Origin: a virus
Strand: one strand, 5' to 3'
IMG/VR virus record: IMGVR_UViG_3300050118_000028
Location: 1-40,688 of that record
Length of the DNA stretch: 40,688 nucleotides
Of the stretch, positions 5,099 to 39,868 are shown in pieces. Made by a program: the position numbers and the translations under genes. The notes below the pieces were generated by a model, which saw nothing but the letters and a program-made list of their open reading frames with translations, made no database searches and was not told the DNA's origin. Position 1 is the first letter of the stretch, and each line of letters starts with the position of its first letter.

Positions 5099-7269
5099 GA
5101 CAGATGGACCACGAGACAGCAGAAACGCCCGCAGTGCCCTCCGGCGAATTGCCGGTCGGCATCGACATTGGCGGAGCGATTCAGAGCGATGAAGTCGAAG
5201 CCCAGGGCGGCGGCGTCACCCCTCCCGTCTTCAGCGATCGCGCAGCCGCGAAAATTGTTTGGGAAAACTTTCAGCTCGCCAAATCCTATCTGGAGCGCAA
5301 CTCGTGGCTGATGGAGTGGCAGGCCACGGACGTCCTCTACCAAAGCCCGAACTACGACAATTGGGTGGGAGTTCGCGACGGGCGGCCCGTTCGAATTTCC
5401 CGATTCCTCATCGCGAAAAACAGCAACACGATGAGCAATCAGACCCATCGAAGCATCTTCGGAAATCAGATTCCTTTCGCCCTGCAGCCCGAAGGCAACA
5501 CCACGGAGCTCGACCTCGAGGCCTGGACGCACCTCATTCACACGCTGATGAAGCGCAGCGACTTCGAATACAACCTTGGACTCATGGGCGAGTCACAGGC
5601 CACGCAGGGCACTGGCCTGGTGCGCCCCGGCTGGGAAGTCGTCGAAAAAATCAAGCGCAGGCGCAAGCGGAAGGCGGCGCCGCAGAACGTTTCAATGCCC
5701 GTGGGCGGCGACCAGGTGGTCAACACGGAAGAGAGCGACGACTTCGAGTTAAAGCAGGACAAGGTCACTCTCAGCTATCCCATCTTCGAGTATCGCCGGC
5801 TGGGCACAACGCTCTATGACCCAAAGTGGAGGACACCGAATCGTCCGGACCTCTCCGCCGGCTGGGTGATCCACGTCGATTACGTCGATTTCGAGGACCT
5901 GCAGCAGCTCCGCGAGCTGCCGTGCTACAAGAACATTCCGAACGATGAGACGCTGAAAGCCTTCTTCATTCAGAACCCGCAGGGCGACGCGCAGCCACCG
6001 TCGCAGACCGCGGATCAGATGAGCTCGCAAAACAGCACGGTGCTGCACGCCGAGGGCGAAGAACGGCAAATGAGCGCTAACCCGTTCGACAGGCCTTTGA
6101 TGCTGCTCGAGATGAACGACAGCGAGCGCACCCGCACCGCCCTGTGTTTCAACGACCGGGTGTATTGCATTCGCAACGACGATCACGAGATGGGCGATCA
6201 CGCGCTCGGCTACGCGGGCAACTGGTGGAACGTTGAAAACTGCGGCTTCGGTATCGGCATCGGCCGTCTCAACTCGGGCGATCAGCGCATGCAGGCCGGA
6301 GTCCTAAACGAAGTTTTGAAGATGATCGGGATGTGGTTCAACACGCCGCTGGTGATCCCGCGCGGCGAGAACTCTCCCACGCAAAATGTGGTGACCGGCC
6401 TTGGAACCTTTTGGGCACTCGATCCGCCGCCCGATGGAGACATGCGGAAAGCTGCGTTCTACCTCGATCGCCCCCTCATCCCGGGCGAGGCGTGGCGCAT
6501 CTACGAGATGGCGCAGCAGGGCGGCGAGCAGCTCGTGGGCGCCGATGCCGCATTCATGCAGGGCAACATCGGCAAGCCCGGATCGAGCGCGGCGCGCACA
6601 GCCACGGGCGCGCAGGCGGTCAGCTCCAAAGCCGAGGACAATGTGGCGCGGCCGGTGTACCACCTCGAAATCGTAATCACTCGCTTTATCGAATTCATCG
6701 TCGAGATGGTGCGCACGAAAATGCCGATCCCCGAAATTCGGGAGATCCTCAAAAAGAAGTACGCCGATGCCATCGTTAAAGGCATCGACATGGATCGCTG
6801 GCTCAACGTGGAATTCAGCTTCAACGTGCTGGCGGGCCAGAAGCTCATCGCGAAACAGGCCATCCTGCAGCTCATCCCGTTCCTTCTCCAGATTCTGCAA
6901 CAGCCACAGTTGCTTGACGGGTTGCACCAAACGGGTCGCACCGTCGACTTCGAAGCCATCGAAGGGCTTTTCATTCGCCTGAGCGAGCTCGCCGGCAACG
7001 ACAACATTTTCCGGCCGATGACACCGCGCGAGCGCGCGATGTACCGCAGCAGCGGCGCGGGCCAGCCGGGGGCTCTCCAAATTGCGCTGGAGCAGCTCAA
7101 AGGCAAAAATCGCCTCGCAGCCGTTCAGGCGAAATCGCAGGGCGACATCACGAAGTCGCTCGCTGACCAGGCTATCGAACGCGGATCCGCCTCTGTCCCC
7201 CTGGAGCGCGCGCAGGCGCTCAACGAACGCACGTCCGACGTGCACATGCTGCAGGAAGGCGTGGAATGA
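5095..7269 (+). CDS. Portal protein
   Basis: This 724-residue protein directly follows terL with a GTGA overlap; ATG at 5104 is an alternative start. Its length, position and composition fit podovirus-type portal proteins: an N-terminal helical region ('WENFQLAKSYLERNSWLMEWQ'-like, residues 50-75), 'SNTMSNQTHRSIFGNQIPF', a stem region with 'GIGIGRLNSGDQRMQAGVLNE' and 'MIGMWFNTPLVIPRGE', and a long helical C-terminus ending 'LNERTSDVHMLQEG'. The portal dodecamer sits at one capsid vertex and is the channel for packaging and ejection. A long basic insert (KIKRRRKRK, about residue 185) is characteristic of this copy. Family placement relies on context and general pattern. Confidence 0.85.
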   Translation: MRQMDHETAETPAVPSGELPVGIDIGGAIQSDEVEAQGGGVTPPVFSDRAAAKIVWENFQLAKSYLERNSWLMEWQATDVLYQSPNYDNWVGVRDGRPVRISRFLIAKNSNTMSNQTHRSIFGNQIPFALQPEGNTTELDLEAWTHLIHTLMKRSDFEYNLGLMGESQATQGTGLVRPGWEVVEKIKRRRKRKAAPQNVSMPVGGDQVVNTEESDDFELKQDKVTLSYPIFEYRRLGTTLYDPKWRTPNRPDLSAGWVIHVDYVDFEDLQQLRELPCYKNIPNDETLKAFFIQNPQGDAQPPSQTADQMSSQNSTVLHAEGEERQMSANPFDRPLMLLEMNDSERTRTALCFNDRVYCIRNDDHEMGDHALGYAGNWWNVENCGFGIGIGRLNSGDQRMQAGVLNEVLKMIGMWFNTPLVIPRGENSPTQNVVTGLGTFWALDPPPDGDMRKAAFYLDRPLIPGEAWRIYEMAQQGGEQLVGADAAFMQGNIGKPGSSAARTATGAQAVSSKAEDNVARPVYHLEIVITRFIEFIVEMVRTKMPIPEIREILKKKYADAIVKGIDMDRWLNVEFSFNVLAGQKLIAKQAILQLIPFLLQILQQPQLLDGLHQTGRTVDFEAIEGLFIRLSELAGNDNIFRPMTPRERAMYRSSGAGQPGALQIALEQLKGKNRLAAVQAKSQGDITKSLADQAIERGSASVPLERAQALNERTSDVHMLQEGVE

Positions 7270-7748: not shown

Positions 7749-8596
7749 AGGGCTACTACAGCGACACCAAGCCGACTGGCGACCCAGTAACCGTGGGGCT
7801 GCTCTGTTGGATTTCGGATTATACCGACGAGGGCCTGGGCAAGGTCGCGACCTATGGCCACACGGAGCTCGAAATCACCGAGAAGCTCGCCAGGCAGAAT
7901 GCCCACGCGCAAATGGTCATCGCCCAGCAGCGCGCGACGCCGCCGCCCGCAGCGGCTCCCGCCCCGGCGCCCACGCCTGCAGTTCGCGGGCGCGTCCCCC
8001 TCACCGCCGATCAGAGAATCAAGCTGACCGCAGACCTCGACAATCCAGCGACAGCGGGCCGCGCCGTGGTGGAGCTGCTCGAAGACACCACCGGGCTGAG
8101 CGTGCAGGACCTGCAGCAGGACAAGTTCAACCGGATGTTTCAGGACTGGCTGGTCGCGCATCCGGAGTTTCCGCGCGGCATTCGCGTGAACGTGCGCCTG
8201 CTCCTGCTCGAAGCCGAGCGGCACGCGGGAAGTCATACCAAAATCACACCGCAGACACTCGACGCGGTGTTTCAGCAACTGCAAAGCGGCGGCGACCTCC
8301 TGGCAGAGATGCCTGTGGAGGACGAACCCTCCGACCCTGCAAGCCCTCAACCCTCTGCGACGCGCGCTGGTGAGAGCCAGCCTCCGCCGTCGACAAGGCC
8401 ACGCGTAGTAGCGACGACGACACACCGCACCACCCGGATGGCGTCTGCCGCTGCACCTCAGTTCAAGCCGAAATACACGCGTGAGCAGATCGACGGAATG
8501 TCCGCCGCAGAAAACAGGCGTCTCATCGACGACCCGGACTATAACGCTTCGGTTGAGTACTATTACCCGTCTTCCGCCTCTCGCGCGCGGGCGTAA
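7745..8596 (+). CDS. Putative scaffolding protein
   Basis: The protein has 283 residues, translationally coupled to the previous gene (ATGA). Positions about 60-80 are Pro/Ala-rich; the middle (80-190) is helical; residues 200-245 are low complexity. The C-terminal helix contains 'KYTREQIDGMSAAENRRLIDDPDYN'-type sequence (about 250-275), a pattern often found at the C-terminus of proteins encoded immediately before the major capsid gene. Scaffolding proteins there bind coat protein through a short charged helix. Assignment rests on position, disorder and this C-terminus. Confidence 0.55.
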   Translation: MKGYYSDTKPTGDPVTVGLLCWISDYTDEGLGKVATYGHTELEITEKLARQNAHAQMVIAQQRATPPPAAAPAPAPTPAVRGRVPLTADQRIKLTADLDNPATAGRAVVELLEDTTGLSVQDLQQDKFNRMFQDWLVAHPEFPRGIRVNVRLLLLEAERHAGSHTKITPQTLDAVFQQLQSGGDLLAEMPVEDEPSDPASPQPSATRAGESQPPPSTRPRVVATTTHRTTRMASAAAPQFKPKYTREQIDGMSAAENRRLIDDPDYNASVEYYYPSSASRARA

Positions 8597-8617
8597 CTTC
8601 CCGCAGGAGAGAACAGA

Positions 8618-9799
8618 GTGAGACTCGATCGCATCGAGAAGATGAGCCTGTGGCTCGTCCGATTCGTTTGGTGGCCACTGCTCCAGCTCATCGCCGCGCT
8701 GGGCGGTTCCATCTTCGTGGCTGGCCGGCTGGCGCTTAGCGCCGCCGCGCTCCAGTCGCACGCCGCAATCTGCAACGATGGGCCGTCGCCCACCTCGATG
8801 CAGACCGGCAATATGCCGCAGGCCAAGTACACCATCCACTACAACAAAGCGTTTATGCAGTGGCTGGCGGCTAACCTCGTGCATCTCCGTCTCTGCACCC
8901 GCATGACGATGCCGGAAAAGAGTGGTCTGACTTTCCGCAACTTCATGCTCGTGCCCATCGGCCCGAACCTTCAGCAACAGACCGAGGGCACCATCGGCGA
9001 CCCCATCACCGTCGACGCCGATTTCCGCGATATCGTCATGGGCCAGTGGGCGGACTATCTCAACTTCTCCGACCTCACCTTCATGACCTCGATTTCGGAC
9101 GACCTCACCAACTACCGGCAGATGATGGCCTATCGTCTCGCTCAGACAATCGACGACCTCATCATGGTGAACTTCGACTATCTCCGCACCCTGGACTCGA
9201 ACACCGCCAACCAGGATTCGCTCACGGGTCCGCTCTATCCGTTCACCAAACAAATCATCGAGCAGATGCCGGCGAGCCTCTTCGGCGCAAAAGTACTGCC
9301 GATGTCCGAGGGTGGTTTCCTGGGCAAAATCCACCCGTTCTTTGTCGGCGACATGGTCGCGCTCGACAACAGCAACAATTCGGTGGTGGACATCCTGAAG
9401 CACACCCAGGACGGCCAGGTGATGCTGCGCGAGCTGACGGACGAGGACAAGGGCCAGACGCCGATCAAAATTCTGGAGCTGCAGGGCTGCAAGTGGCTCA
9501 GCTCGACCAACTGCACCCAGACGACGAACTGGCAGGGTTCGGGGCTGACCGCTCTGAGCACCTACTGCGCAGGCTACCAGGCAATGATTTTCGTCAACCT
9601 GCCGAGCGCGCGTCACACCGACCCGCATCCCCGCTGGGAAAACATGGACCTGTGGGCAGGCCAGTATGCCCGTTCGTCCTACGATCCCGCCGGCGTGATC
9701 GCGGCCGGAACCAGCTACAACACCATCCTGGGCATCGGTCCGCCGCCTGACACGGTGAGCCGCGCTCGCATCGCAAAGGCCGTCCCGCAGACGACCTAA
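8618..9799 (+). CDS. Major capsid protein, N4-gp56-like, with hydrophobic N-terminal extension
   Basis: This is a 393-residue protein; GTG 8618 follows AGGAG by 8 bases. From residue 61 ('MQTGNMPQAKYTIHYNKAF') it follows the N4-gp56 capsid family: 'MPEKSGLTFRNFMLVPIGPN', 'LTEG'-like 'QTEGTIGDPITVDADFRDI', 'VMGQWADYLNFSDLTFMTSIS' and 'LAQTIDDLIMVNFDYLRTLD'. Residues 10-47 are an unusual hydrophobic stretch ('LWLVRFVWWPLLQLIAALGG') that looks like a membrane or signal segment. ATG 8798 could be the family's usual start, but it has no good ribosome binding site, whereas GTG 8618 does. A hairpin follows the gene. Confidence 0.8.
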   Translation: MRLDRIEKMSLWLVRFVWWPLLQLIAALGGSIFVAGRLALSAAALQSHAAICNDGPSPTSMQTGNMPQAKYTIHYNKAFMQWLAANLVHLRLCTRMTMPEKSGLTFRNFMLVPIGPNLQQQTEGTIGDPITVDADFRDIVMGQWADYLNFSDLTFMTSISDDLTNYRQMMAYRLAQTIDDLIMVNFDYLRTLDSNTANQDSLTGPLYPFTKQIIEQMPASLFGAKVLPMSEGGFLGKIHPFFVGDMVALDNSNNSVVDILKHTQDGQVMLRELTDEDKGQTPIKILELQGCKWLSSTNCTQTTNWQGSGLTALSTYCAGYQAMIFVNLPSARHTDPHPRWENMDLWAGQYARSSYDPAGVIAAGTSYNTILGIGPPPDTVSRARIAKAVPQTT

Positions 9800-9810
9800 G
9801 CGGTTACAAA

Positions 9811-9840
9811 TCTCACGGGTGCGTCACCGCGCCCGTGAGA
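9811..9840 (+). terminator. Hairpin after the major capsid gene
   Basis: TCTCACGGG (9811-9819) pairs perfectly with CCCGTGAGA (9832-9840); an inner GCG/CGC pair extends the stem. The next bases are ATTTC, not a T tract, so it may protect the capsid mRNA 3' end or act as a partial terminator. Confidence 0.55.
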
Positions 9841-9874
9841 ATTTCAACCCCCAATGTCGGCAAAGGAGCGAGAG

Positions 9875-10561
9875 ATGGCGGAAGACAAAAAGAAACAGGC
9901 CCCCGATGAGATGGCCGCGGAGAACGAGCTGCTTCGGAATCAGATCCTGCGCGTTCAGCTTGAAACGGCGCAGATCGGGCTCGAACAGCAGAAACAAACC
10001 AACGAGGCGTGGCACCAGAAGGAAGAGGAGCGCAAGCGTGGGAATCGTCGCCGGCAGTCGCAATTTGCCGGGGATCGCCGCGGGCGCCTCCAGCGGCAGC
10101 GGATGTGCGCGCACCGCCAGGGCGGCAACGCCGCAAGCAACGATCCACTGAAGGGCAAGGGCGACAGCGCGTTGACTCGCTCGCAGGTTTTCTTCCGGGG
10201 CAACTTTCTCATCCAGTGCAATCGCTGCGAGCTGAAGGTCCAGCGTCCCCACCCGCTCCTGCGCAAGATCGATAAAAAGCTCTACGACGCGGCCATGAGC
10301 GAATACGAGCTGCTGATCGAACTGTCGGAAAGCAACGACCTGCAGCCGATCGAGGGCACGACGTTCTCATTCACGAACGACGCCGGCCTTCCGGTATGGC
10401 CGAAGATCGATCCGAACGCGAGCGAGGGCGAAGAGATTCCCCGGCCGGAACTCCTGGGCATCACGTCCGAATCCCAGGCATACCTGCACTCGAAAAACGT
10501 GAAGCTGCCTCGCGTTCGCGCTCGCCGTCTCTCCGCGATCGCCGTCGCCGAAGAGGACTAA
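9875..10561 (+). CDS. Hypothetical head-module protein with Cys/His pair
   Basis: This 228-residue protein starts at ATG 9875, seven bases after GGAG; an earlier ATG at 9854 has no ribosome binding site. It has a charged coiled-coil N-terminus (about 1-60), a basic linker, then 'RMCAHRQGGN' followed 35 residues later by 'CNRCELKVQRPHP', which looks like a split zinc site (C-x-H ... CxxC). The C-terminal half is acidic with two short repeats of helix plus Pro. It lies directly after the capsid gene and is probably virion-associated, but no family is recognised. Confidence 0.6.
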   Translation: MAEDKKKQAPDEMAAENELLRNQILRVQLETAQIGLEQQKQTNEAWHQKEEERKRGNRRRQSQFAGDRRGRLQRQRMCAHRQGGNAASNDPLKGKGDSALTRSQVFFRGNFLIQCNRCELKVQRPHPLLRKIDKKLYDAAMSEYELLIELSESNDLQPIEGTTFSFTNDAGLPVWPKIDPNASEGEEIPRPELLGITSESQAYLHSKNVKLPRVRARRLSAIAVAEED

Positions 10562-10609
10562 ACAACCAACAGCGGACGCCGGTAGGCACCGCAGAAAGCA
10601 GGTCCGTAG

Positions 10610-11251
10610 GTGTTCGATCAGATCACGGCAGGCCCGAGCGGGCCATCCGGCGGAAACCTCAGTTCTCCCGGACTCATTTTGGACCGGACCAACAATGTGG
10701 TGCTGTCGGTCGGCGATAGCCGCATCGAATCGGCGCTCCAGTGTGTCCTGCTCGGATTGGGTCCGCAACCCGCGCTGATTACGATCACCACAGCGCAGAA
10801 CCTCATCAACCAAAACCTCGGAGCCTGGCTGCTAAACCGCACCGGCCGCCGGCTGCGCGTGCGCGGCAATGGCATCTACACGTCCGAAGGCACCAGCGCT
10901 CCTGTGCTGACCATCGCACTCGCGCTCGGTGGAACTTCGCTCGTTTCGATCGCCGCTGCCGCTGCCAGCACCACGCTGAGCACCAACATGCCGTTCAGCT
11001 TCGATTTCGAGGTGGTGACCATCACACCCGGAGCCGCGGCAGCGTCGGAGCTCGAGGCGCACGGCAGGGTTACCGCCAACATCAGCGCCAACACGCCGGC
11101 GGCAGCAGCAGTCGTCTATCTCGACGCGAACAACGCTGAAATCGCCAACATCAACCTCGAAAGCGTCCTCGCCCTAACGGTGTCGATCGCTGCGAGCGCG
11201 GCGATCACAAGCGCACAGCTTCGTAATGCAGCGATCGAGCTGCTCGCGTAG
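10610..11251 (+). CDS. Putative capsid decoration or beta-sandwich virion protein
   Basis: This is a 213-residue protein starting at GTG. It is Ala/Thr/Ser-rich with long alternating strands: 'LITITTAQNLINQNLG', 'RRLRVRGNGIYT' and 'VLTIALALGGTSLVSIAAAA'. It is low in charge and has one Cys. Position after the capsid gene and the beta-rich pattern suggest a head decoration protein. It shares strand spacing with the protein at 2300-2917. An intrinsic terminator follows, so it likely ends a transcript. Confidence 0.55.
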   Translation: MFDQITAGPSGPSGGNLSSPGLILDRTNNVVLSVGDSRIESALQCVLLGLGPQPALITITTAQNLINQNLGAWLLNRTGRRLRVRGNGIYTSEGTSAPVLTIALALGGTSLVSIAAAAASTTLSTNMPFSFDFEVVTITPGAAAASELEAHGRVTANISANTPAAAAVVYLDANNAEIANINLESVLALTVSIAASAAITSAQLRNAAIELLA

Positions 11252-11263
11252 GATTTTGCAACA

Positions 11264-11299
11264 GGGCGGGTCCCAGGTGGTGGAATCCGCCCTCTTTTT
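11264..11299 (+). terminator. Intrinsic terminator
   Basis: GGGCGG (11264-11269) pairs with CCGCCC (11287-11292), extendable by GT/AT pairs including one wobble, and is followed by TCTTTTT (11293-11299). It lies 13 bp after the stop of the decoration-like gene. Confidence 0.7.
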
Positions 11300-11334
11300 C
11301 CAGAACGGCAGCCAACCACAGGAGGTTTTTCCGA

Positions 11335-11970
11335 ATGTATCGCGACGACACAGTCTTTAAGCGAGTCATGGAGGAACTGCGCGACCTTCGCGCGCATCTG
11401 GAAATCCGCCTCAACGAAAGAGGGCTGCGCGACCTTCGCATCCACCTGGACCGGCGCCTCGAAAAGATTCATGACGAGCTACACCGGCTCGATCCGAACC
11501 CCCACTTAGCCAGCATCAAACTCCGTTTTTCGAAAGGTTCAGCAGCCATGACAGCAGTCGCAGGTCCTCTCACGCTTACAACCGCCGGGGCGAGCGCAAT
11601 CGCGTCCGTTCTCGGCTTCGATCAGTTCGGCAACCCGTTCACCGGGACCATGCCGGCCGTCACCCTCAGCTCCAGCGACACCGCCGGCGATATCGTGACC
11701 TTCGATCCATCGACAGGCCTCGTGACCGCAGTCAGTAACGGCGTCGCGAACATCACCGCATCGCTGACCACCGCGGAAGGCGTGTCCCTCACCGACACCG
11801 AAGCTGTCACCGTGGCGCTCTCTGGCGGCGGCGGCGGCACTCCCGTGCTGTCCAGCATCAAGGTGGCTTTCGACACCAGCGGAGCTCCGGCTCCGGCCAA
11901 CCCGGTTGCCAGCGCGGCAGCGGCCAACGCGGCGAAGGCGCAGGTGGCGGCGGCAGCGGCGCGGAAGTAA
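11335..11970 (+). CDS. Helix plus Ig-like (BIG2-type) virion protein
   Basis: The protein has 211 residues with an AGGAGG ribosome binding site. Residues 1-60 are charged and helical with a repeated 'LRDLRAHLEIRLNERG'/'LRDLRIHLDRRLEK' segment. Residues 68-160 resemble a bacterial Ig-like group 2 domain: 'SAIASVLGFDQFGNPFTGT', 'ITFDPSTGLVTAVSNGVANITAS'-like spacing and a Thr-rich end. A Gly5 linker and Ala-rich tail follow. Ig-like domains decorate many phage heads and bind surface sugars weakly. Role inferred from domain and position. Confidence 0.6.
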   Translation: MYRDDTVFKRVMEELRDLRAHLEIRLNERGLRDLRIHLDRRLEKIHDELHRLDPNPHLASIKLRFSKGSAAMTAVAGPLTLTTAGASAIASVLGFDQFGNPFTGTMPAVTLSSSDTAGDIVTFDPSTGLVTAVSNGVANITASLTTAEGVSLTDTEAVTVALSGGGGGTPVLSSIKVAFDTSGAPAPANPVASAAAANAAKAQVAAAAARK

Positions 11971-11989
11971 AACCCGAAGGGAGACTTGC

Positions 11990-12985
11990 GTGGGCAACAG
12001 CACTCAGACGTTTCGCCAAAAACTCGACGCACTGGCGGCGCGCGGTGTTTTTGACCCACGCAAGGCTCCTTCCGGTTACGGGGATGCGCTCACCTTCGAA
12101 ATCATCAACAATTCGATGGCGGACTTTATCTGCGAGCGCTTCAACTGGCCGTTCAACCGCTCCAACGCTACTCCGTTCGCAACGAACAGTTGGCAGCAGG
12201 ATTACCCGCAGCTCGCGCAACCGGGAGGGCCGATCGCGTGGGGCGAAGACTGCGACCAGGTCGACGTCAACAATTCGATGAACCCGCAGCCGCTCTGGAA
12301 TGTCACCTGGCGGCGAGGTCTCAGCCGGATCCGGACCAATCTCGCGCCCGTGCAGCCTGGCAACTGGCAGATTTGCTGGATGTACAACAAGGACCTGAGT
12401 TTCGGAGCCTGGCCGGGAGCCAACACCACTTACTACCCGCTCATCACCACCGGGGTGGTGCAACAGAATCCCATCATGAGCATGGTGGACAAGAACCAAA
12501 ACCTGCTCATCGTCACAGGCTTCGGCACCACCGGCAGCGTGGCACCGTTCGCGACTGCGAACGCGCTCGAAGGTACCGTCGTGACCGATGGCAGCGTGAC
12601 CTGGACAGTGGTGAGCCCAACGTCGCAGGGATTCCGCGTCTTCCCTCTTCCGAACGCCACCGGCCCCACCTACCTCATCGTGCCGTCCTACCAGCTGGAG
12701 CCGCCTGTAATCTCGGACCTCGGAGCGACCCTCGATCCGATTCCGGACAGCTACAGCCGGCATTTCGTGCGCATCCTCGACTTCCAGTGCCAGATGGCCA
12801 GCACGGACCCGGCAAAGAAGAAGGAAGCGCTGGATGGCTACCCGCTCTACCTGAAAAGCCTGGAAGGCGCCAAAAAGCAGGGCGACAAGACGCCAAACGC
12901 TTACGGACTCGTGCCTGCAAGTTCGCCCGTAGAGAGCACGTGGCCCGGGGCATCCTTCCGGGGGACCGCAGACAGCCCATTCTAA
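11990..12985 (+). CDS. Head-tail adaptor-like structural protein A
   Basis: The protein has 331 residues. GTG 11990 is chosen because AGGGAG lies seven bases upstream; longer in-frame extensions run into the previous gene. The N-terminal 100 residues ('DALTFEIINNSMADFICERF', 'WPFNRSNATPFAT') are helical with aromatic residues. The middle has Thr/Val-rich strands and 'GTVVTDGSVTWTVV', a small beta module also found in the tail protein at 15370. The end is charged. Residues about 30-70 resemble the N-terminus of the next gene product, suggesting a tandem paralogue. Position points to a head-completion or tail-adaptor protein; the exact family is not recognised. Confidence 0.6.
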   Translation: MGNSTQTFRQKLDALAARGVFDPRKAPSGYGDALTFEIINNSMADFICERFNWPFNRSNATPFATNSWQQDYPQLAQPGGPIAWGEDCDQVDVNNSMNPQPLWNVTWRRGLSRIRTNLAPVQPGNWQICWMYNKDLSFGAWPGANTTYYPLITTGVVQQNPIMSMVDKNQNLLIVTGFGTTGSVAPFATANALEGTVVTDGSVTWTVVSPTSQGFRVFPLPNATGPTYLIVPSYQLEPPVISDLGATLDPIPDSYSRHFVRILDFQCQMASTDPAKKKEALDGYPLYLKSLEGAKKQGDKTPNAYGLVPASSPVESTWPGASFRGTADSPF

Positions 12986-13001
12986 ACGTGGAACCCCTTT
13001 T

Positions 13002-13715
13002 ATGAGCCAGGAACTCGTAGTCCAGAACACGATGAAGTGGGCTCAGCCCATCCTCAAAAATCAGGGCCTGCAGATCAATGGCCAGGAACCGGGGCTTACC
13101 TTCGCGAATTTCATCCTGCAGCGCATGATGGGGCCGCCGTTCCGCTGGAGAACCAATCGAAAAAACTTCAGTTTCCCGCTGAGCGCGGGCCTGACCGACT
13201 ACGCGATCACCGTCGCCGACCTGGGCCACATCGAATCCGACTCCGCGTGGATCGTGGACAGCACCGGAAAGCGCTTTGCCTGCAAGGGCCGGCTCACCAT
13301 GGAGCAGAGCAGCATGAGTGATCGGCCGTCCGAGTACGCGCCCGTCTACGACAACGGGGCCGGCCTGATCACTTTCCGTGTGAAGCCGGCCCCCGATTCC
13401 GGCGGCTACACCCTGTACGGCGATTACCAGGTGCGGCCGCCGCTCATCGTGAGCTTTGCTCAGCCATGGGGAACCGTATCCGACGACTTCAGCTACATCT
13501 TCAACGCCGGCTTTCTGTCGATGGGCCTCCTGCTCATCAACAGCACGCAGGCCCCGATCTGGGAGCGGTACTTCGTCGGCTCGCTGCTCAGCGCGCAGGA
13601 AGGCCTCGACCAGCAGGCCATCGACATCTTCCTGGGCCAGTGGACAAACTACTCGCGCACCATCGCCGCCGCGGCCGCCGCGCAACAGGGCGGGACCTCG
13701 GGGCGCGGCCTGTAA
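13002..13715 (+). CDS. Head-tail adaptor-like structural protein B
   Basis: This is a 237-residue protein starting at ATG 13002. Residues 8-60 carry 'MKWAQPILKNQG', 'LTFANFILQRMMGPPFRWRTNRKNF' and 'SAGLTDYAIT', a helix-Trp-Arg-Asn-strand pattern seen in adaptor proteins that contact portal and tail. The remainder has beta strands, then a C-terminal helical region 'FSYIFNAGFLSMGLLLIN' and an Ala-rich tail. It closes the block of structural genes; the accessory cassette begins 46 bp later. No exact family recognised. Confidence 0.6.
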   Translation: MSQELVVQNTMKWAQPILKNQGLQINGQEPGLTFANFILQRMMGPPFRWRTNRKNFSFPLSAGLTDYAITVADLGHIESDSAWIVDSTGKRFACKGRLTMEQSSMSDRPSEYAPVYDNGAGLITFRVKPAPDSGGYTLYGDYQVRPPLIVSFAQPWGTVSDDFSYIFNAGFLSMGLLLINSTQAPIWERYFVGSLLSAQEGLDQQAIDIFLGQWTNYSRTIAAAAAAQQGGTSGRGL

Positions 13716-13726
13716 TTACACCCTAT

Positions 13727-13762
13727 TTGCAGGCCGCGCAAAATGCCGGTATTATGCCGGTA
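13727..13762 (+). promoter_or_regulatory. Promoter and operator of the anti-defence cassette
   Basis: TTGCAG (13727-13732) and TATTAT (13750-13755) are exactly 17 bp apart. Two direct copies of ATGCCGGTAT (13743-13752 and 13754-13763) overlap the -10 with an 11-bp period, one helical turn. The same 10-mer lies in the RHH operator at 842-851. Transcription is predicted from 13762, the A of the ATG of the next gene, which has no Shine-Dalgarno sequence, so the mRNA should be leaderless. It is the only gap of any size between the head and tail genes here. Confidence 0.7.
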
Positions 13763-13983
13763 TGCCAGTCGCCAAAGGAAACCTCGATTTTGTGTTTGCC
13801 CACCACGCACCGGATGAAGCAAAGATAAAAAAGCACGAGATGATCCGGTCCCACGCCGCCGCTTTCGCCTTCGCGATTCTCGAAATGACACCGCAGTGCG
13901 CCGACCAGCAGGCCGCACTCCGCCTCGTCCGCGAAGCTATGATGACCGCCAACGCTGCGATTGCGCTGGACGGTGCTGTGTGA
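13762..13983 (+). CDS. acb2: Acb2/Tad1-hairpin-like cyclic-nucleotide sponge (anti-CBASS candidate)
   Basis: This is a 73-residue, two-helix hairpin protein. Residues 17-41 form helix 1 ('DEAKIKKHEMIRSHAAAFAF', then 'AILEM'). A short 'TPQCADQQ' turn follows, and residues 50-69 form helix 2, 'AALRLVREAMMTANAAIALD'. The helix 2 signature 'REAMMxANAAIA' and the helix 1 pattern match small phage proteins of the Acb2/Tad1 hairpin family. Characterised members form hexamers that sequester CBASS cyclic oligonucleotides, and Tad1 binds the Thoeris signal gcADPR. The gene has its own promoter and starts a cassette that also contains Tad2. Which ligand it binds cannot be told from sequence. It overlaps the next gene by one base (TGATG). 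Confidence 0.7.
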   Translation: MPVAKGNLDFVFAHHAPDEAKIKKHEMIRSHAAAFAFAILEMTPQCADQQAALRLVREAMMTANAAIALDGAV

Positions 13984-14237
13984 TGAGCGCGGCCCGAGTC
14001 GCTCCGCCACAAGACCCCTACTTCCAGTTCCACGTCACGCGCGACTGGACCGGCAAGCCGTTGAACTTCGTGGTTTGGGCGAAGCCGACCGCTCGCAAAA
14101 TCCGTGAGTCACAGTGTCAGGACCCGGCTCATCCGTGGTTCGAAATCGACGAGGATACTCTGCCGCCCGGGTTTGACCCGCCGCCAGTGGGCCACGCTTA
14201 TGTTTGTTGCGCGTGCCTGGGAGAGGTGATCGAATGA
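13983..14237 (+). CDS. Small Cys-containing accessory protein
   Basis: This is an 84-residue protein starting at ATG 13983, overlapping the previous stop by one base. It has 'YFQFHVTRDWTGKPLNFVVW' near the N-terminus, a mid 'SQCQDPAHPWFEID' and a C-terminal 'YVCCACLGEVIE'. The Cys residues plus His could form one zinc site. It is co-transcribed with the Acb2-like gene, so an anti-defence or host-takeover role is possible, but no family is recognised. Confidence 0.6.
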   Translation: MSAARVAPPQDPYFQFHVTRDWTGKPLNFVVWAKPTARKIRESQCQDPAHPWFEIDEDTLPPGFDPPPVGHAYVCCACLGEVIE

Positions 14238-14243
14238 GGCTCT

Positions 14244-14384
14244 GGAAGAGGTCCACGGATTGATTCCCAAATACATAAACCCGCAGGGAGTGGAGATGCC
14301 TGAAGGATTCGACCCGGCAAGCATTGACGCCATCGGAATCAACAGGGATGGCACTTGGATATACGCCACTCAAAAGGAAGAAGC
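14244..14384 (+). repeat. Direct repeat block A, copy 1
   Basis: These 141 bp are repeated at 14602-14742 with one substitution (A at 14270, G at 14628). The repeat includes the ribosome binding site AGGGAG and the ATG of the encoded gene, so each copy can be translated. Confidence 0.95.
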
Positions 14385-14661
14385 GTCGGCGCGTGAACAG
14401 ATGGAGCGAGGCGTGCGTAACATCAATCCCTACCTCACGGATGCCGAACTCGCCGAACTAAAAGAGCCACTGAAAGGCACCCGCGCAGCTTTGGTATGGT
14501 CGCAGGACGAAGCGGGGTGCGGTTATATTGTGGAGCTGTTTGACGAGGGGCAGCGCTTTCGAGGTGTCATGCACCCGAGAACCGCGCTCGAAATGCTCAG
14601 GGGAAGAGGTCCACGGATTGATTCCCAGATACATAAACCCGCAGGGAGTGGAGATGCCTGA
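14296..14661 (+). CDS. Duplicated accessory gene, copy 1
   Basis: The protein has 121 residues; ATG 14296 follows AGGGAG by five bases. It begins 'MPEGFDPASIDAIGINRDGT' and continues to 'WIYATQKEEA'. A variable 12-residue insert (14385-14420) follows, then a second conserved block 'INPYLTDAELAELKE' to 'GTRAA'. The unique tail 'WSQDEAGCGYIVELFDEGQR' may be the original C-terminus. The final 'GRGPRIDSQIHKPAGSGDA' is block A of copy 2 read in another frame, so the original stop was probably lost on duplication. Function unknown; the setting between two sponge genes makes it an anti-defence candidate. Confidence 0.6.
   Translation: MPEGFDPASIDAIGINRDGTWIYATQKEEASAREQMERGVRNINPYLTDAELAELKEPLKGTRAALVWSQDEAGCGYIVELFDEGQRFRGVMHPRTALEMLRGRGPRIDSQIHKPAGSGDA
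14421..14492 (+). repeat. Direct repeat block B, copy 1
   Basis: These 72 bp recur at 14761-14832 with one substitution (C at 14468, T at 14808). Blocks A and B are separated by 36 bp in copy 1 and 18 bp in copy 2, both in frame. Confidence 0.95.
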
Positions 14662-14742
14662 AGGATTCGACCCGGCAAGCATTGACGCCATCGGAATCAA
14701 CAGGGATGGCACTTGGATATACGCCACTCAAAAGGAAGAAGC
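14602..14742 (+). repeat. Direct repeat block A, copy 2
   Basis: Second copy of the 141-bp block, offset 358 bp from copy 1. The near-identity at silent and non-silent sites alike points to a recent duplication. Confidence 0.95.
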
Positions 14743-15187
14743 TCCTTCGAAGGAGGGAATCATCAATCCCTACCTCACGGATGCCGAACTCGCCGAACTA
14801 AAAGAGCTACTGAAAGGCACCCGCGCAGCTTTTTTCGATGATCCGAGCCTGAGTTATTACTGCAACTGGAGGACAATCATGGCAAACGAAGTGACGGAAA
14901 GAGGAAACGATATAGGCTGGGCGGTTGGTGCGCTGAAGGCCGGCCACAAGATCGCGCGGCGAGGCTGGAACGGTCGCGGGATGTGGCTCGCGCTCAGCCC
15001 TGGCAACAAGGCACTGGCAGCCGATAATTTTTGGGCTGGCCCGAACCGCGACTATGCGAACGAAAACGGCGGCACCGCTGAAGTGCTTCCTTCGATCACC
15101 ATGAAAACGGCGACGGGCGAGATCCTCATGGGTTGGCTGGCGTCGCAAACCGACCTGCTCGCAACCGATTGGGAGCTGGCGCGGTGA
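14654..15187 (+). CDS. Duplicated accessory gene copy 2, reading in frame into Tad2
   Basis: Starting at ATG 14654 with the duplicated AGGGAG site, this frame encodes 177 residues. It comprises the copy 1-like N-terminus (1-60, with a six-residue 'PSKEGI' insert in place of twelve), a short linker 'FFDDPSLSYYCNWRTI', then the whole Tad2 protein from residue 76. No stop separates them. Either a genuine fusion is made along with free Tad2 from its own start at 14879, or the upstream part is a decaying gene. The unique tail of copy 1 is missing here. Confidence 0.5.
   Translation: MPEGFDPASIDAIGINRDGTWIYATQKEEAPSKEGIINPYLTDAELAELKELLKGTRAAFFDDPSLSYYCNWRTIMANEVTERGNDIGWAVGALKAGHKIARRGWNGRGMWLALSPGNKALAADNFWAGPNRDYANENGGTAEVLPSITMKTATGEILMGWLASQTDLLATDWELAR
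14761..14832 (+). repeat. Direct repeat block B, copy 2
   Basis: Second copy of the 72-bp block. Homology stops at 14832, 46 bp before the Tad2 ATG, so the downstream junction of the duplication lies here. Confidence 0.95.
14879..15187 (+). CDS. tad2: Tad2-like anti-Thoeris protein (DUF2829)
   Basis: The protein has 102 residues; ATG 14879 is preceded by GGAGG at 6-7 bases. DUF2829 hallmarks are 'DIGWAVGALKAGHKIARRGW' (11-30), 'NGRGMWLALSPG' (31-42), a central 'VLPSITMKTATGEI' and the C-terminal 'GWLASQTDLLATDWELAR'. Tad2 proteins form tetramers that sequester the Thoeris signal 1''-3' gcADPR, and some homologues have also been reported to bind CBASS cyclic dinucleotides. It shares the operon led by the Acb2-like gene. 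The next gene starts within its stop (GTGA). Family membership is clear; the ligand for this protein is inferred. Confidence 0.9.
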   Translation: MANEVTERGNDIGWAVGALKAGHKIARRGWNGRGMWLALSPGNKALAADNFWAGPNRDYANENGGTAEVLPSITMKTATGEILMGWLASQTDLLATDWELAR

Positions 15188-15369
15188 GCGACGGCAAAAT
15201 TGTGAAGGCGGACGAAATCGTGATTGGTCAGTATGCGGACTATCTCGACACCGGCCTGTGGTCATGGGATCAGAAAACCGGCAAGCTCACCCCACCGTCC
15301 GATCTCACGCCCAAACAGGCGCGAGATTTCCAGCGTGTGTTCGGCGAACTTTTTGAGGGGAAGCGATAA
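15184..15369 (+). CDS. Small protein after Tad2
   Basis: This 61-residue protein starts at GTG overlapping the Tad2 stop. It has an acidic, aromatic N-terminal half ('IVIGQYADYLDTGLWSWDQK') and a helical end 'LTPKQARDFQRVFGELFEG'. No known family. The coupling to tad2 puts it in the accessory cassette, and the tail gene follows without a gap. Confidence 0.6.
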   Translation: MSDGKIVKADEIVIGQYADYLDTGLWSWDQKTGKLTPPSDLTPKQARDFQRVFGELFEGKR

Positions 15370-32936: not shown

Positions 32937-33221
32937 ATGGCAGAATTTACAATTGAGCTGGAGCGTATGCTTCGCAAACTGAAAAAGGACATGTACGACG
33001 GAGACGGCGCGCGCCCTGGCGTGACGACGCGACTGTTTTTGATCGAGAAGGAAGGCGAGGTGGTGGAAGCGAAGTTTCTTGAGCTGAAGGAGTTCACCGA
33101 GAGACTGATCGAAAAACTGCAGGATTCGGTATCGGCCATCAACCACAGCCTGCTCAAAGCGGCCGGGGCCGTGCTTCTGCTGGTCATCGCGGATATCCTC
33201 GTCAGAGTGTTTGTGAAATGA
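32937..33221 (+). CDS. Coiled coil plus C-terminal membrane helix (XhlA/holin-accessory-like)
   Basis: This 94-residue protein has a charged coiled coil (about residues 5-70) followed by a single C-terminal membrane segment 'AAGAVLLLVIADILVRVFVK'. This tail-anchored arrangement is like XhlA-type lysis accessory proteins. It overlaps the next start by 4 bp (ATGA). A lysis role is likely given the nearby hydrolase and membrane proteins. Confidence 0.6.
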   Translation: MAEFTIELERMLRKLKKDMYDGDGARPGVTTRLFLIEKEGEVVEAKFLELKEFTERLIEKLQDSVSAINHSLLKAAGAVLLLVIADILVRVFVK

Positions 33222-33463
33222 CCATCGAACTCAAAGTAAAAGAAGTCCTCGAAAGAGTCCTGCTCCCCGCCGACGACGCCGCCATCACATCGAGCGCCGA
33301 CCTGCGCGAGGATCTCGACGCCGACTCCCTCGATATCGTCGAAATCCAGATCGAACTCGAGGAGATGGGCCTCGAGATCACCGACACCGCGGCCGAGTGC
33401 TGGCGCACCGTCCAGGATGTCATTGACACCGCCGCAGCGGCGGAGAAAGCAACAACTCACTAA
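33218..33463 (+). CDS. Acyl carrier protein
   Basis: This is an 81-residue protein of acyl carrier size. 'DLREDLDADSLDIVEIQIEL' (28-47) carries the DSL motif, Ser37 being the expected 4'-phosphopantetheine attachment site. 'EEMGLEITDTAAECWRTVQD' forms the rest of helices 2 and 3. Host ACPs usually have 'IPDEDAEKI' where this has 'ITDTAAECW', so it is divergent. It sits between lysis-type and tail-type genes and overlaps the upstream gene. Phage ACPs are known but their roles are mostly unclear: an acyl donor for membrane or virion modification, or a mimic that competes with host ACP. Confidence 0.85.
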   Translation: MTIELKVKEVLERVLLPADDAAITSSADLREDLDADSLDIVEIQIELEEMGLEITDTAAECWRTVQDVIDTAAAAEKATTH

Positions 33464-38566: not shown

Positions 38567-39111
38567 CAGTAGCCTTTTCCCGTGGGTTTGTAGCGGTTGA
38601 GTGCGTTGGCAATTCGACGCGCGGAGGTGTGAGAGACGGCGACTGCAACGCGCTCCGGCAACTTGCCGGACGCGCGCTTCGTCCGCATCACCACATCCTT
38701 CACGGCGACGAACCGCGCGCCATTCGCGCCCGATTCACTTGCGTTCGCCGCGCAAAAAGTGGAAAGGTTGCTCGGTGTACAGCTGGCAAGCCCGCATGCC
38801 GCGCACAGTGGATTCGTCGCGATTTCCTCCTCATGTTTTCTCGGCTTTGGCCCGTGATCGCGCCACCATACCAATGCATCATAGGCAGAAGGCAATTCGT
38901 CATGCGGAATATTCTCTTCCATTCGGTCTATTTCCGCTTGAATCTCTATCGGATCTATTTCGGTCAATTTCTTGCGCGGTTCTCTCAAGGCGTCCATAGG
39001 TTCCTCTCCGTTCGATTGGCTACCACTAACAGGTAGGCAGGTTTGCCGCATCCTGTTTTCGACCCGTGCCATAAGGGTCTTCATCAGGTGGCTACTCCGG
39101 TGCTTCGCCAT
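38566..39111 (-). CDS. Hypothetical protein of the leftward operon
   Basis: This is a 181-residue protein; ATG 39111 follows AGGAGG. It overlaps the ArdC stop by 20 bp. It is hydrophilic, with 'PIEIQAEIDRMEENIPHDEL' in the middle and 'CAACGLASC' (about 103-111) as a Cys cluster. The C-terminus is basic. No family recognised; co-expression with ArdC suggests an early role. Confidence 0.6.
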   Translation of the reverse strand: MAKHRSSHLMKTLMARVENRMRQTCLPVSGSQSNGEEPMDALREPRKKLTEIDPIEIQAEIDRMEENIPHDELPSAYDALVWWRDHGPKPRKHEEEIATNPLCAACGLASCTPSNLSTFCAANASESGANGARFVAVKDVVMRTKRASGKLPERVAVAVSHTSARRIANALNRYKPTGKGY

Positions 39112-39868
39112 CGCTGGCCTCCTGAGTTTTGAATGTGCGTCCGAGAATCAAATCCGCTGCGCGCTGCGCGCGCTGCGCGGCACCTACCACGAGGGACCTA
39201 TCGTTTTTGAGAGCGCGGAGCCAGCCAGCCAGATACGCCGCGTGCTGCTCGTCCAGGCGATCATTGCGGATGCCCGTTTCAGCGCAAATGAATGCGGCGG
39301 TAAACTCCGCGACCAACTCCTCTTTCGAGTAGCGCGAGCTGCCGAACGCGCCGCCCCGCCCCTCTTCCCTGTTGAGTAGGGTGGGGTGCATCGTGGAATG
39401 GCCAAACTCGTGGAAGATGGTCGCGTAATAGCTCTCCGCATCGCTGAACGTGCCAGGGTGCGGCATCGTGACCGTGTGATAGCCCGGGGAGTAGAACGCG
39501 CGATCACCGCCATGTGTGAGCGAGGGATGATGGGCGTGAGCGAGATAGCCAGCAACGACGCGCTCCGCCGATTCAATAGGATCCGCGTCCTGGTCCTTCC
39601 CGATGCGCCAGAACACGACGCGCGCGCCATGCTCGCCCTTGCGAACCTGCGCCCCGATGTCGCGCGCTTGTTTATAGGTGATCCACTGGCGCGACGGAAA
39701 CGGGGAGCACATCAGCAGCCAGACATTGACGCCACGGTACGACTTGCGCGACGCGAAGTTAGAAGGAACATTCTCCGTCGCGCGCGCTTTCCACGGTTGA
39801 CGCCACGGCACCACGCCAGCTTCTAAGCTGGCGACCATTCGATCAGTAACCTCTTGATAGACATTCAT
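39092..39868 (-). CDS. ardC: ArdC-like antirestriction protein
   Basis: The protein has 258 residues; GGAGGGG precedes ATG by seven bases. The N-terminal domain ('EVTDRMVASLEAGVVPWRQP', 'WITYKQARDIGAQVRKGEHG') is the single-strand DNA binding ArdC/DUF1738 module. The C-terminal part is a metallopeptidase domain with 'HEFGH' (153-157), and the Glu in 'EELVAEFTAAF' (about 183-188) as third ligand. ArdC proteins protect incoming DNA from restriction. The gene is in the operon of the strong right-end promoter, as expected for early expression. Confidence 0.9.
   Translation of the reverse strand: MNVYQEVTDRMVASLEAGVVPWRQPWKARATENVPSNFASRKSYRGVNVWLLMCSPFPSRQWITYKQARDIGAQVRKGEHGARVVFWRIGKDQDADPIESAERVVAGYLAHAHHPSLTHGGDRAFYSPGYHTVTMPHPGTFSDAESYYATIFHEFGHSTMHPTLLNREEGRGGAFGSSRYSKEELVAEFTAAFICAETGIRNDRLDEQHAAYLAGWLRALKNDRSLVVGAAQRAQRAADLILGRTFKTQEASDGEAPE

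Follow-up and report, generated by a model that had tools for sequence, protein, structure and literature searches.

The genes g1 to g6, at 13.7 to 15.4 kb of the IMG/VR virus record IMGVR_UViG_3300050118_000028 (analysed at its full length of 40,688 bases and hereafter called the window), probably form a counter-defence cassette of a tailed phage that carries two families of nucleotide-signal sponge. We put the probability of this reading at about 0.6. The sponge genes would be g5, which encodes a Tad2 protein, and g1, which encodes a divergent relative of the Acb2 and Tad1 hairpins (Table 1). The g1 protein would be made from a start just 3' of a promoter-like site, and Tad2 from the same transcript. 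During infection, Tad2 would sequester an ADP-ribose signal made by TIR proteins, either glycocyclic ADP-ribose (gcADPR) or histidine-ADP-ribose (His-ADPR), and possibly cyclic dinucleotides, while the g1 hairpin protein would oligomerise and sequester a cyclic nucleotide. With these signals lowered, effectors of the cyclic-oligonucleotide-based anti-phage signalling system (CBASS) and Thoeris types would stay inactive and host death would not be triggered. An earlier, sequence-only reading of this DNA had proposed paired sponges against CBASS and Thoeris. Both family assignments hold and the pairing recurs elsewhere, but joint sponging of the two kinds of signal is unproven.

The g5 assignment carries the most weight. 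Judged by its profile matches, g5 is a clear Tad2 family member, in agreement with the sequence-only reading, which had placed the protein encoded at 14879-15187 in DUF2829. It matches PF11195 (Tad2-like) at 3e-22 and 79.4 bits (gathering score 25), as well as the studied Tad2 proteins SptTad2 (2e-15), HgmTad2 (1.2e-14), SPO1 Tad2 (9e-10), and ModTad2 (3.8e-9). It resembles SptTad2 (8wjd), HgmTad2/AcrIIA7 (8kbi), and SPO1 Tad2 (8sme) in its whole-domain match, its similar length, and the signature motifs GWNGxGMW and WLASQTDxLAxDW, which are both kept; it differs from them by an insertion of intermediate length and a possible 87-residue N-terminal extension, provided by a duplicated gene in the same frame. 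N-terminally extended Tad2 proteins also occur in relatives L122 and L127 (PHROG 872 match at 86-171 of 172), to whose extensions the stretch upstream of the window's Tad2 shows no recognisable relation.

Tad2 tetramers hold gcADPR, and some Tad2 proteins also hold cyclic dinucleotides, through an extended insertion located between beta2 and beta5 (PMC12043709). According to PMC13299392, His-ADPR is bound by MoTad2. Because some Tad2 proteins bind cyclic dinucleotides, a scheme of one sponge per system may be wrong, and the two sponge-family proteins of the window might both cover that single signal class, as redundancy. We regard this as improbable: the matched stretch of g5 is 8 residues longer than that of SPO1 Tad2, as redundancy would favour, but 4 and 10 residues shorter than those of SptTad2 and HgmTad2, respectively, so that g5 may or may not have the dinucleotide pocket. 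The Tad2 proteins that bind cyclic dinucleotides are presumably of the SptTad2/HgmTad2 type, to which the closest solved relatives of g5 belong.

For g1, the profile search, the predicted fold, and the aligned residues all bear on family membership. The gene matches PF24729 (Acb2_Tad1_hairpin) at 7.3e-10 and 39.3 bits (cut-off 27), and this model also matches 61/61 members of the g1 family alignment, composed of g1 and 60 IMG/VR relatives, at E-values up to 0.01. (The strict conservation of MTANAAIA in that alignment arises in part from the patterns used for searching, and we do not rely on it.) As the sequence-only reading had anticipated, the AlphaFold2 model is a helical hairpin (predicted local distance difference test score, pLDDT, 96), with a short N-terminal helix at residues 5-11 and long helices at 19-42 and 47-68. 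It agrees with the topology described for Acb2, a short N-terminal helix followed by two long antiparallel helices; Acb2 hexamers hold cyclic di- and trinucleotides (PMC12043709). The model contains helices only: g1 shares with CbTad1 (7uav) the PF24729 hairpin, which is C-terminal in Tad1, and lacks the N-terminal beta-sheet domain. In a weak hhalign alignment, the Acb2 Tyr (T4 Y8, PaP2 Y11) is matched by Tyr in 55 of the 61 members and by His in the other 6 (His14 in the window), and PaP2 K26, which we take to be an Acb2 pocket residue, is matched by Arg in 60 of 61. The Y8A mutant of T4 Acb2 is binding-deficient (PMC12657230).

Hairpin and Tad2 genes are also found together in other phages. 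A Pfam-wide search of 50 whole records carrying a g5-type Tad2 detected a PF24729 gene above cut-off in seven, and in each of these it lies close to Tad2 on the same strand. Similarly, pairs of immediate same-strand neighbours occur at 9 of the 80 Tad2 loci and at 4 of the 80 Acb2 loci; the hairpin profiles behind these two counts include some of the counted sequences, a dependence from which the Pfam search is free. All these samples consist of nearest relatives of the queries, not of random records, and many of the records are fragments. By DNA similarity, the pairs outside the window fall into five groups (L091; L099-L101 with L145; L122, L133, and L148; L127; L198, L199, and L209), and their hairpins, taken as a profile, match solved PaP2 Acb2 at 6.5e-19. 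In the L099/L145 group, the hairpins are shorter and have no GY motif: those at L099:6276-6479 and L145:6282-6485 (about 66 residues) lie directly 3' of Tad2 and represent a further hairpin subfamily. Pairing in general is thus recurrent, but the version seen in the window, with a divergent hairpin and genes in between, is unique so far. Two nucleotide-signal sponges in one phage are already known from SPO1, which has Tad2 and Acb4, the latter of a fold unrelated to Acb2, Tad1, and Tad2 (PMC11722364), and clusters of small accessory anti-defence genes are known from phage anti-defence islands (dbAPIS, PMC10767833). The neighbouring hairpin-Tad2 pair appears new, as we found no description of it in the open papers searched. 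That two sponge families repeatedly stand side by side, in more than one phage, suggests that phages face CBASS-type signalling and TIR-type signalling in combination.

The window derives from a soil phage that is likely to have a host in Acidobacteriota. The host assignment rests on three similarities: the portal protein has a single match among 50,697 phage records, in Tunturiibacter phage Tunturi_3 (26% identity); the g1 hairpin also matches phage Tunturi_1; and an Acidobacteriaceae metagenome-assembled genome encodes a Tad2 that is 62% identical to g5, among the closest in the bacterial genomes scanned. The same bacterial genome encodes a SMODS nucleotidyltransferase domain.

Several results weigh against the two-sponge reading, most of them concerning g1. 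Searched against the PDB at E-values up to 10, the 61-member profile finds no solved Acb2 chain; the only PDB sequence matches, for g1 alone and for the profile, were designed helical bundles, which were set aside. Direct comparison of the g1 family with Acb2 by hhalign is weak (E 0.043, probability 1%). A Thr that is invariant across the nine Acb2-side sequences compared (PaP2 T74, equivalent to T4 T68), and whose change to Met lowers binding by T4 Acb2 (PMC12657230), has no counterpart in g1, which contains no Thr at residues 44-61; the invariant Arg54 of the g1 family falls at this position in an ungapped alignment, and a gap in the hhalign one. Furthermore, Tad2 is absent from all 67 records searched for it that hold g1-type hairpins or represent related phages, so that the precise combination seen in the window is not conserved. 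On the host side, the CBASS marker SMODS (PF18144) exceeds its cut-off in only 3 of 100 genomes of the probable host family, and a search of host defences for the ThsA domain PF18185 gave no match, which is uninformative as the control gave none either.

The results on g1 would fit another explanation, in which Tad2 is the sole active sponge and g1 shares only the fold of Acb2, with another role, for example as a scaffold or in regulation through DNA or protein binding. Many phages carry g1-type hairpins without Tad2, helical hairpins easily give chance matches, and Foldseek returned no significant PDB match for the g1 model (59 matches, best 50 listed). Among the matches listed, T4 Acb2 ranks second, with the best TM-score of 0.63, at an E-value of 4.0. 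We nevertheless find this explanation rather unlikely: chains of T4 Acb2, PaP2 Acb2, and CbTad1 recur among these few fold matches, PF24729 recognises the entire g1 family, and the columns aligned with the Acb2 Tyr and Lys retain aromatic and basic residues, respectively.

Since its profile finds no solved Acb2 and the invariant Thr is missing, g1 is best described, on sequence grounds, as a member of the Acb2/Tad1-hairpin superfamily in a divergent subfamily, and not as Acb2 proper. The sequence-only reading, which had called it Acb2-like, therefore stands at the level of the superfamily. Compared with Acb2 (PaP2, 8h2j; T4 Vs.4, 7uq2), the 73-residue g1 is alike in domain, modelled helix topology, and, going by the weak hhalign alignment, in an aromatic residue and Lys/Arg at the Tyr11 and Lys26 positions, and differs in the absent Thr, in lacking sequence matches to solved Acb2 beyond the Pfam model, and in its own pattern YHxP...D48...R54..R57. 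To judge by these residues, its pocket is different from that of Acb2. The protein may well bind a nucleotide. We suggest, quite tentatively, that the YHxP/D48/R54/R57 subfamily is a distinct sponge, with Arg in place of the Acb2 Thr, for a different immune nucleotide, and that the hairpin-Tad2 pair is a recurrent two-signal module of counter-defence assembled independently several times. The subfamily occurs in many environmental phages and a few cultured ones; among the latter, gp101 of Tunturiibacter phage Tunturi_1 (L266:2501-2716), a cultured acidobacterial phage, is a relative of g1 with 41% identity. A widespread subfamily with such a relative makes ligand specificity beyond the few studied Acb2 proteins directly testable.

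Table 1. Features of the window between and including the genes that border the cassette.
Feature	Position	Strand	Remarks
Left border, SU10-adaptor-like head-tail gene	13002-13715	+	PF24175 at 1.2e-4, below cut-off; 92% amino-acid identity to L001, 44% to L026
Inverted repeat, 10 bp stem GCGCGGCCTG/CAGGCCGCGC	13703-13739		spans adaptor stop codon, overlaps promoter-like -35; identical in L001
Promoter-like TTTGCA-18-TATTAT	13726-13755	+	6 nt before ATG 13762; 2 matches found, 0.8 expected
g1, Acb2/Tad1-hairpin superfamily, 73 residues, divergent YHxP/D48/R54/R57 subfamily	13762-13983	+	assigned by profile, alignment, and model
g2, near-orphan, 84 residues, CCxC at C-terminus	13983-14237	+	other copy only in L001
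g3, near-orphan, 133 residues, TTG start, Shine-Dalgarno GGAAGAGG	14260-14661	+	C-terminal half in L001
g4, second, shorter version of g3 (two blocks of 99% identity)	14618-14878	+	frame has no stop ahead of Tad2, which it may extend N-terminally
g5, Tad2 (DUF2829/PF11195), 102 residues	14879-15187	+	profile matches; own Shine-Dalgarno GGAGG 7 nt before ATG
g6, near-orphan, 61 residues	15184-15369	+	relatives only in L001 (80%) and L163 (52%)
Right border, large nozzle-like tail protein, 951 residues	15370-18225	+	homologue directly 3' of adaptor in L169

The segment containing these genes is an accessory, recently rearranged cassette in the adaptor-nozzle slot, because this slot is empty in a relative and because a sister phage has the hairpin without Tad2. 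In the relative (L169), the adaptor gene (6001-6708) is followed by the nozzle homologue from 6712, which supports the proposed insertion between head-tail and nozzle genes. Other relatives carry different cargo in the slot (L167 and L026), including a low-complexity Gly/Tyr/Asp repeat frame at L167:7050-7232, and in L026 a g1-type hairpin gene lies immediately 5' of the tail gene. L004 and L005 have neighbouring genes that match those of the window, with the hairpin gene elsewhere, just 3' of the portal gene. Tight coupling of the genes, also noted in the sequence-only reading, is visible throughout in overlapping stops and starts: g1 and g2 share TGATG (13981-13985), a mini open reading frame of 9 codons begins at an ATG overlapping the g2 stop (14234-14237) and ends with TTGA at the start of g3, g3 overlaps g4, Tad2 and g6 share GTGA (15184-15187), and g6 abuts the nozzle ATG (15370).

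The sister phage (L001) shares 92.6% identity with positions 7790-14237 of the window. Its cassette holds g1, g2, one partial g3 copy, and g6, and Tad2 is absent both from there and from the rest of its 31,855-base record. The window stretch 14835-14878, with the GGAGG site, leads into Tad2, and its counterpart in the sister phage leads into the TTG start of a g3-type gene; in addition, the sister phage's g6 homologue begins with a copy of the first 48 bases of its tail gene (6825-6872 and 7027-7074). As order and content differ, Tad2 is missing, and the start of the tail gene is repeated, the adaptor-nozzle segment is undergoing reshuffling. Few synonymous differences separate the two phages in g1 (2 of about 50 sites) compared with the adaptor (about 39 of 167; Fisher p 0.0016), which suggests a recent exchange around g1. 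The ratio of nonsynonymous to synonymous substitution rates (dN/dS) of g1, 0.89, rests on two synonymous changes, and no interpretation was drawn from it. Sponges are what Panoptes-type systems sense (PMC12657218, PMC12657230), so that near-identical phages differing by the gain or loss of Tad2 offer a natural comparison.

The duplication that the sequence-only reading had reported is real. It consists of two blocks, 14244-14384/14602-14742 (141 bp) and 14421-14492/14761-14832 (72 bp), each 99% identical between copies. Between the blocks, the second copy has a stretch with the palindrome CTCCTTCGAAGGAG (14743-14760) in place of a 36-base stretch of the first copy, and this replacement creates an AAGGAGG site. 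What that reading had missed is that the second copy, from TTG 14618, reads straight into Tad2 in the same frame, over 190 codons to 15187 including the stop; the 87 codons from TTG 14618 to ATG 14879 contain no stop. A longer Tad2 form of 189 residues is therefore possible, and we take ATG 14879 as the main start because it has its own GGAGG site 7 nt upstream.

The duplication also lends itself to a reading of the locus as a decaying recombination hot spot, with g2, g3, g4, and g6 as fragments or read-through products and a cassette that is not selected as a unit. The near-identical tandem copies, the second of them truncated and open into Tad2, the differing order and content in the sister phage (where the g6 homologue contains the nozzle start once more), and the near-orphan status of the genes would all be expected from decay. 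This account is unlikely, as both Tad2 and g1 remain intact and retain conserved motifs, the frames of g2 and of the C-terminal part of g3 are maintained relative to the sister phage (dN/dS 0.53 and 0.29, respectively), and stops and starts overlap from gene to gene. The proposal that three small genes (g2, the duplicated gene, and g6) are candidate inhibitors finds no support, as none of them matches a family and each has only one or two relatives. In the scans, g2 has a relative only in the sister phage, g6 only there and in L163, and g3 none, its sister-phage relative having come from a separate comparison; searches of Pfam, PHROGs, and NCBIfam gave no family for g2, g3, g4, or g6. An AlphaFold2 model of g3 built from 3 sequences is uninformative (pLDDT 50), and a weak match (0.006) of g4 to a type II restriction enzyme was set aside. 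The cassette DNA has no match among the 50,697 phages, and PADLOC and NCBIfam scans returned nothing useful.

Whether the cassette has its own promoter, as the sequence-only reading had stated, can be answered only suggestively. The promoter-like site is one of 2 matches where 0.8 would be expected (Table 1); in its favour, it lies just before a g1 start that, in the window as in the sister phage, lacks the Shine-Dalgarno site present in most of 30 other relatives, suggesting that the g1 transcript may be leaderless. The inverted repeat that overlaps its -35 is possibly a terminator stem for adaptor transcription, or an operator that binds a regulator.

Two further genes lie outside the cassette. 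Near the record's other end, the minus strand encodes at 39092-39868 an ArdC-like anti-restriction protein (PF08401 at 6e-30, PF18818 at 4e-35; PHROG 7245, anti-restriction protein), which is a further counter-defence gene. The plus strand encodes an acyl carrier protein at 33218-33463 (PF00550 at 5.6e-6; PHROG 5934), in a phage record of about 40 kb.

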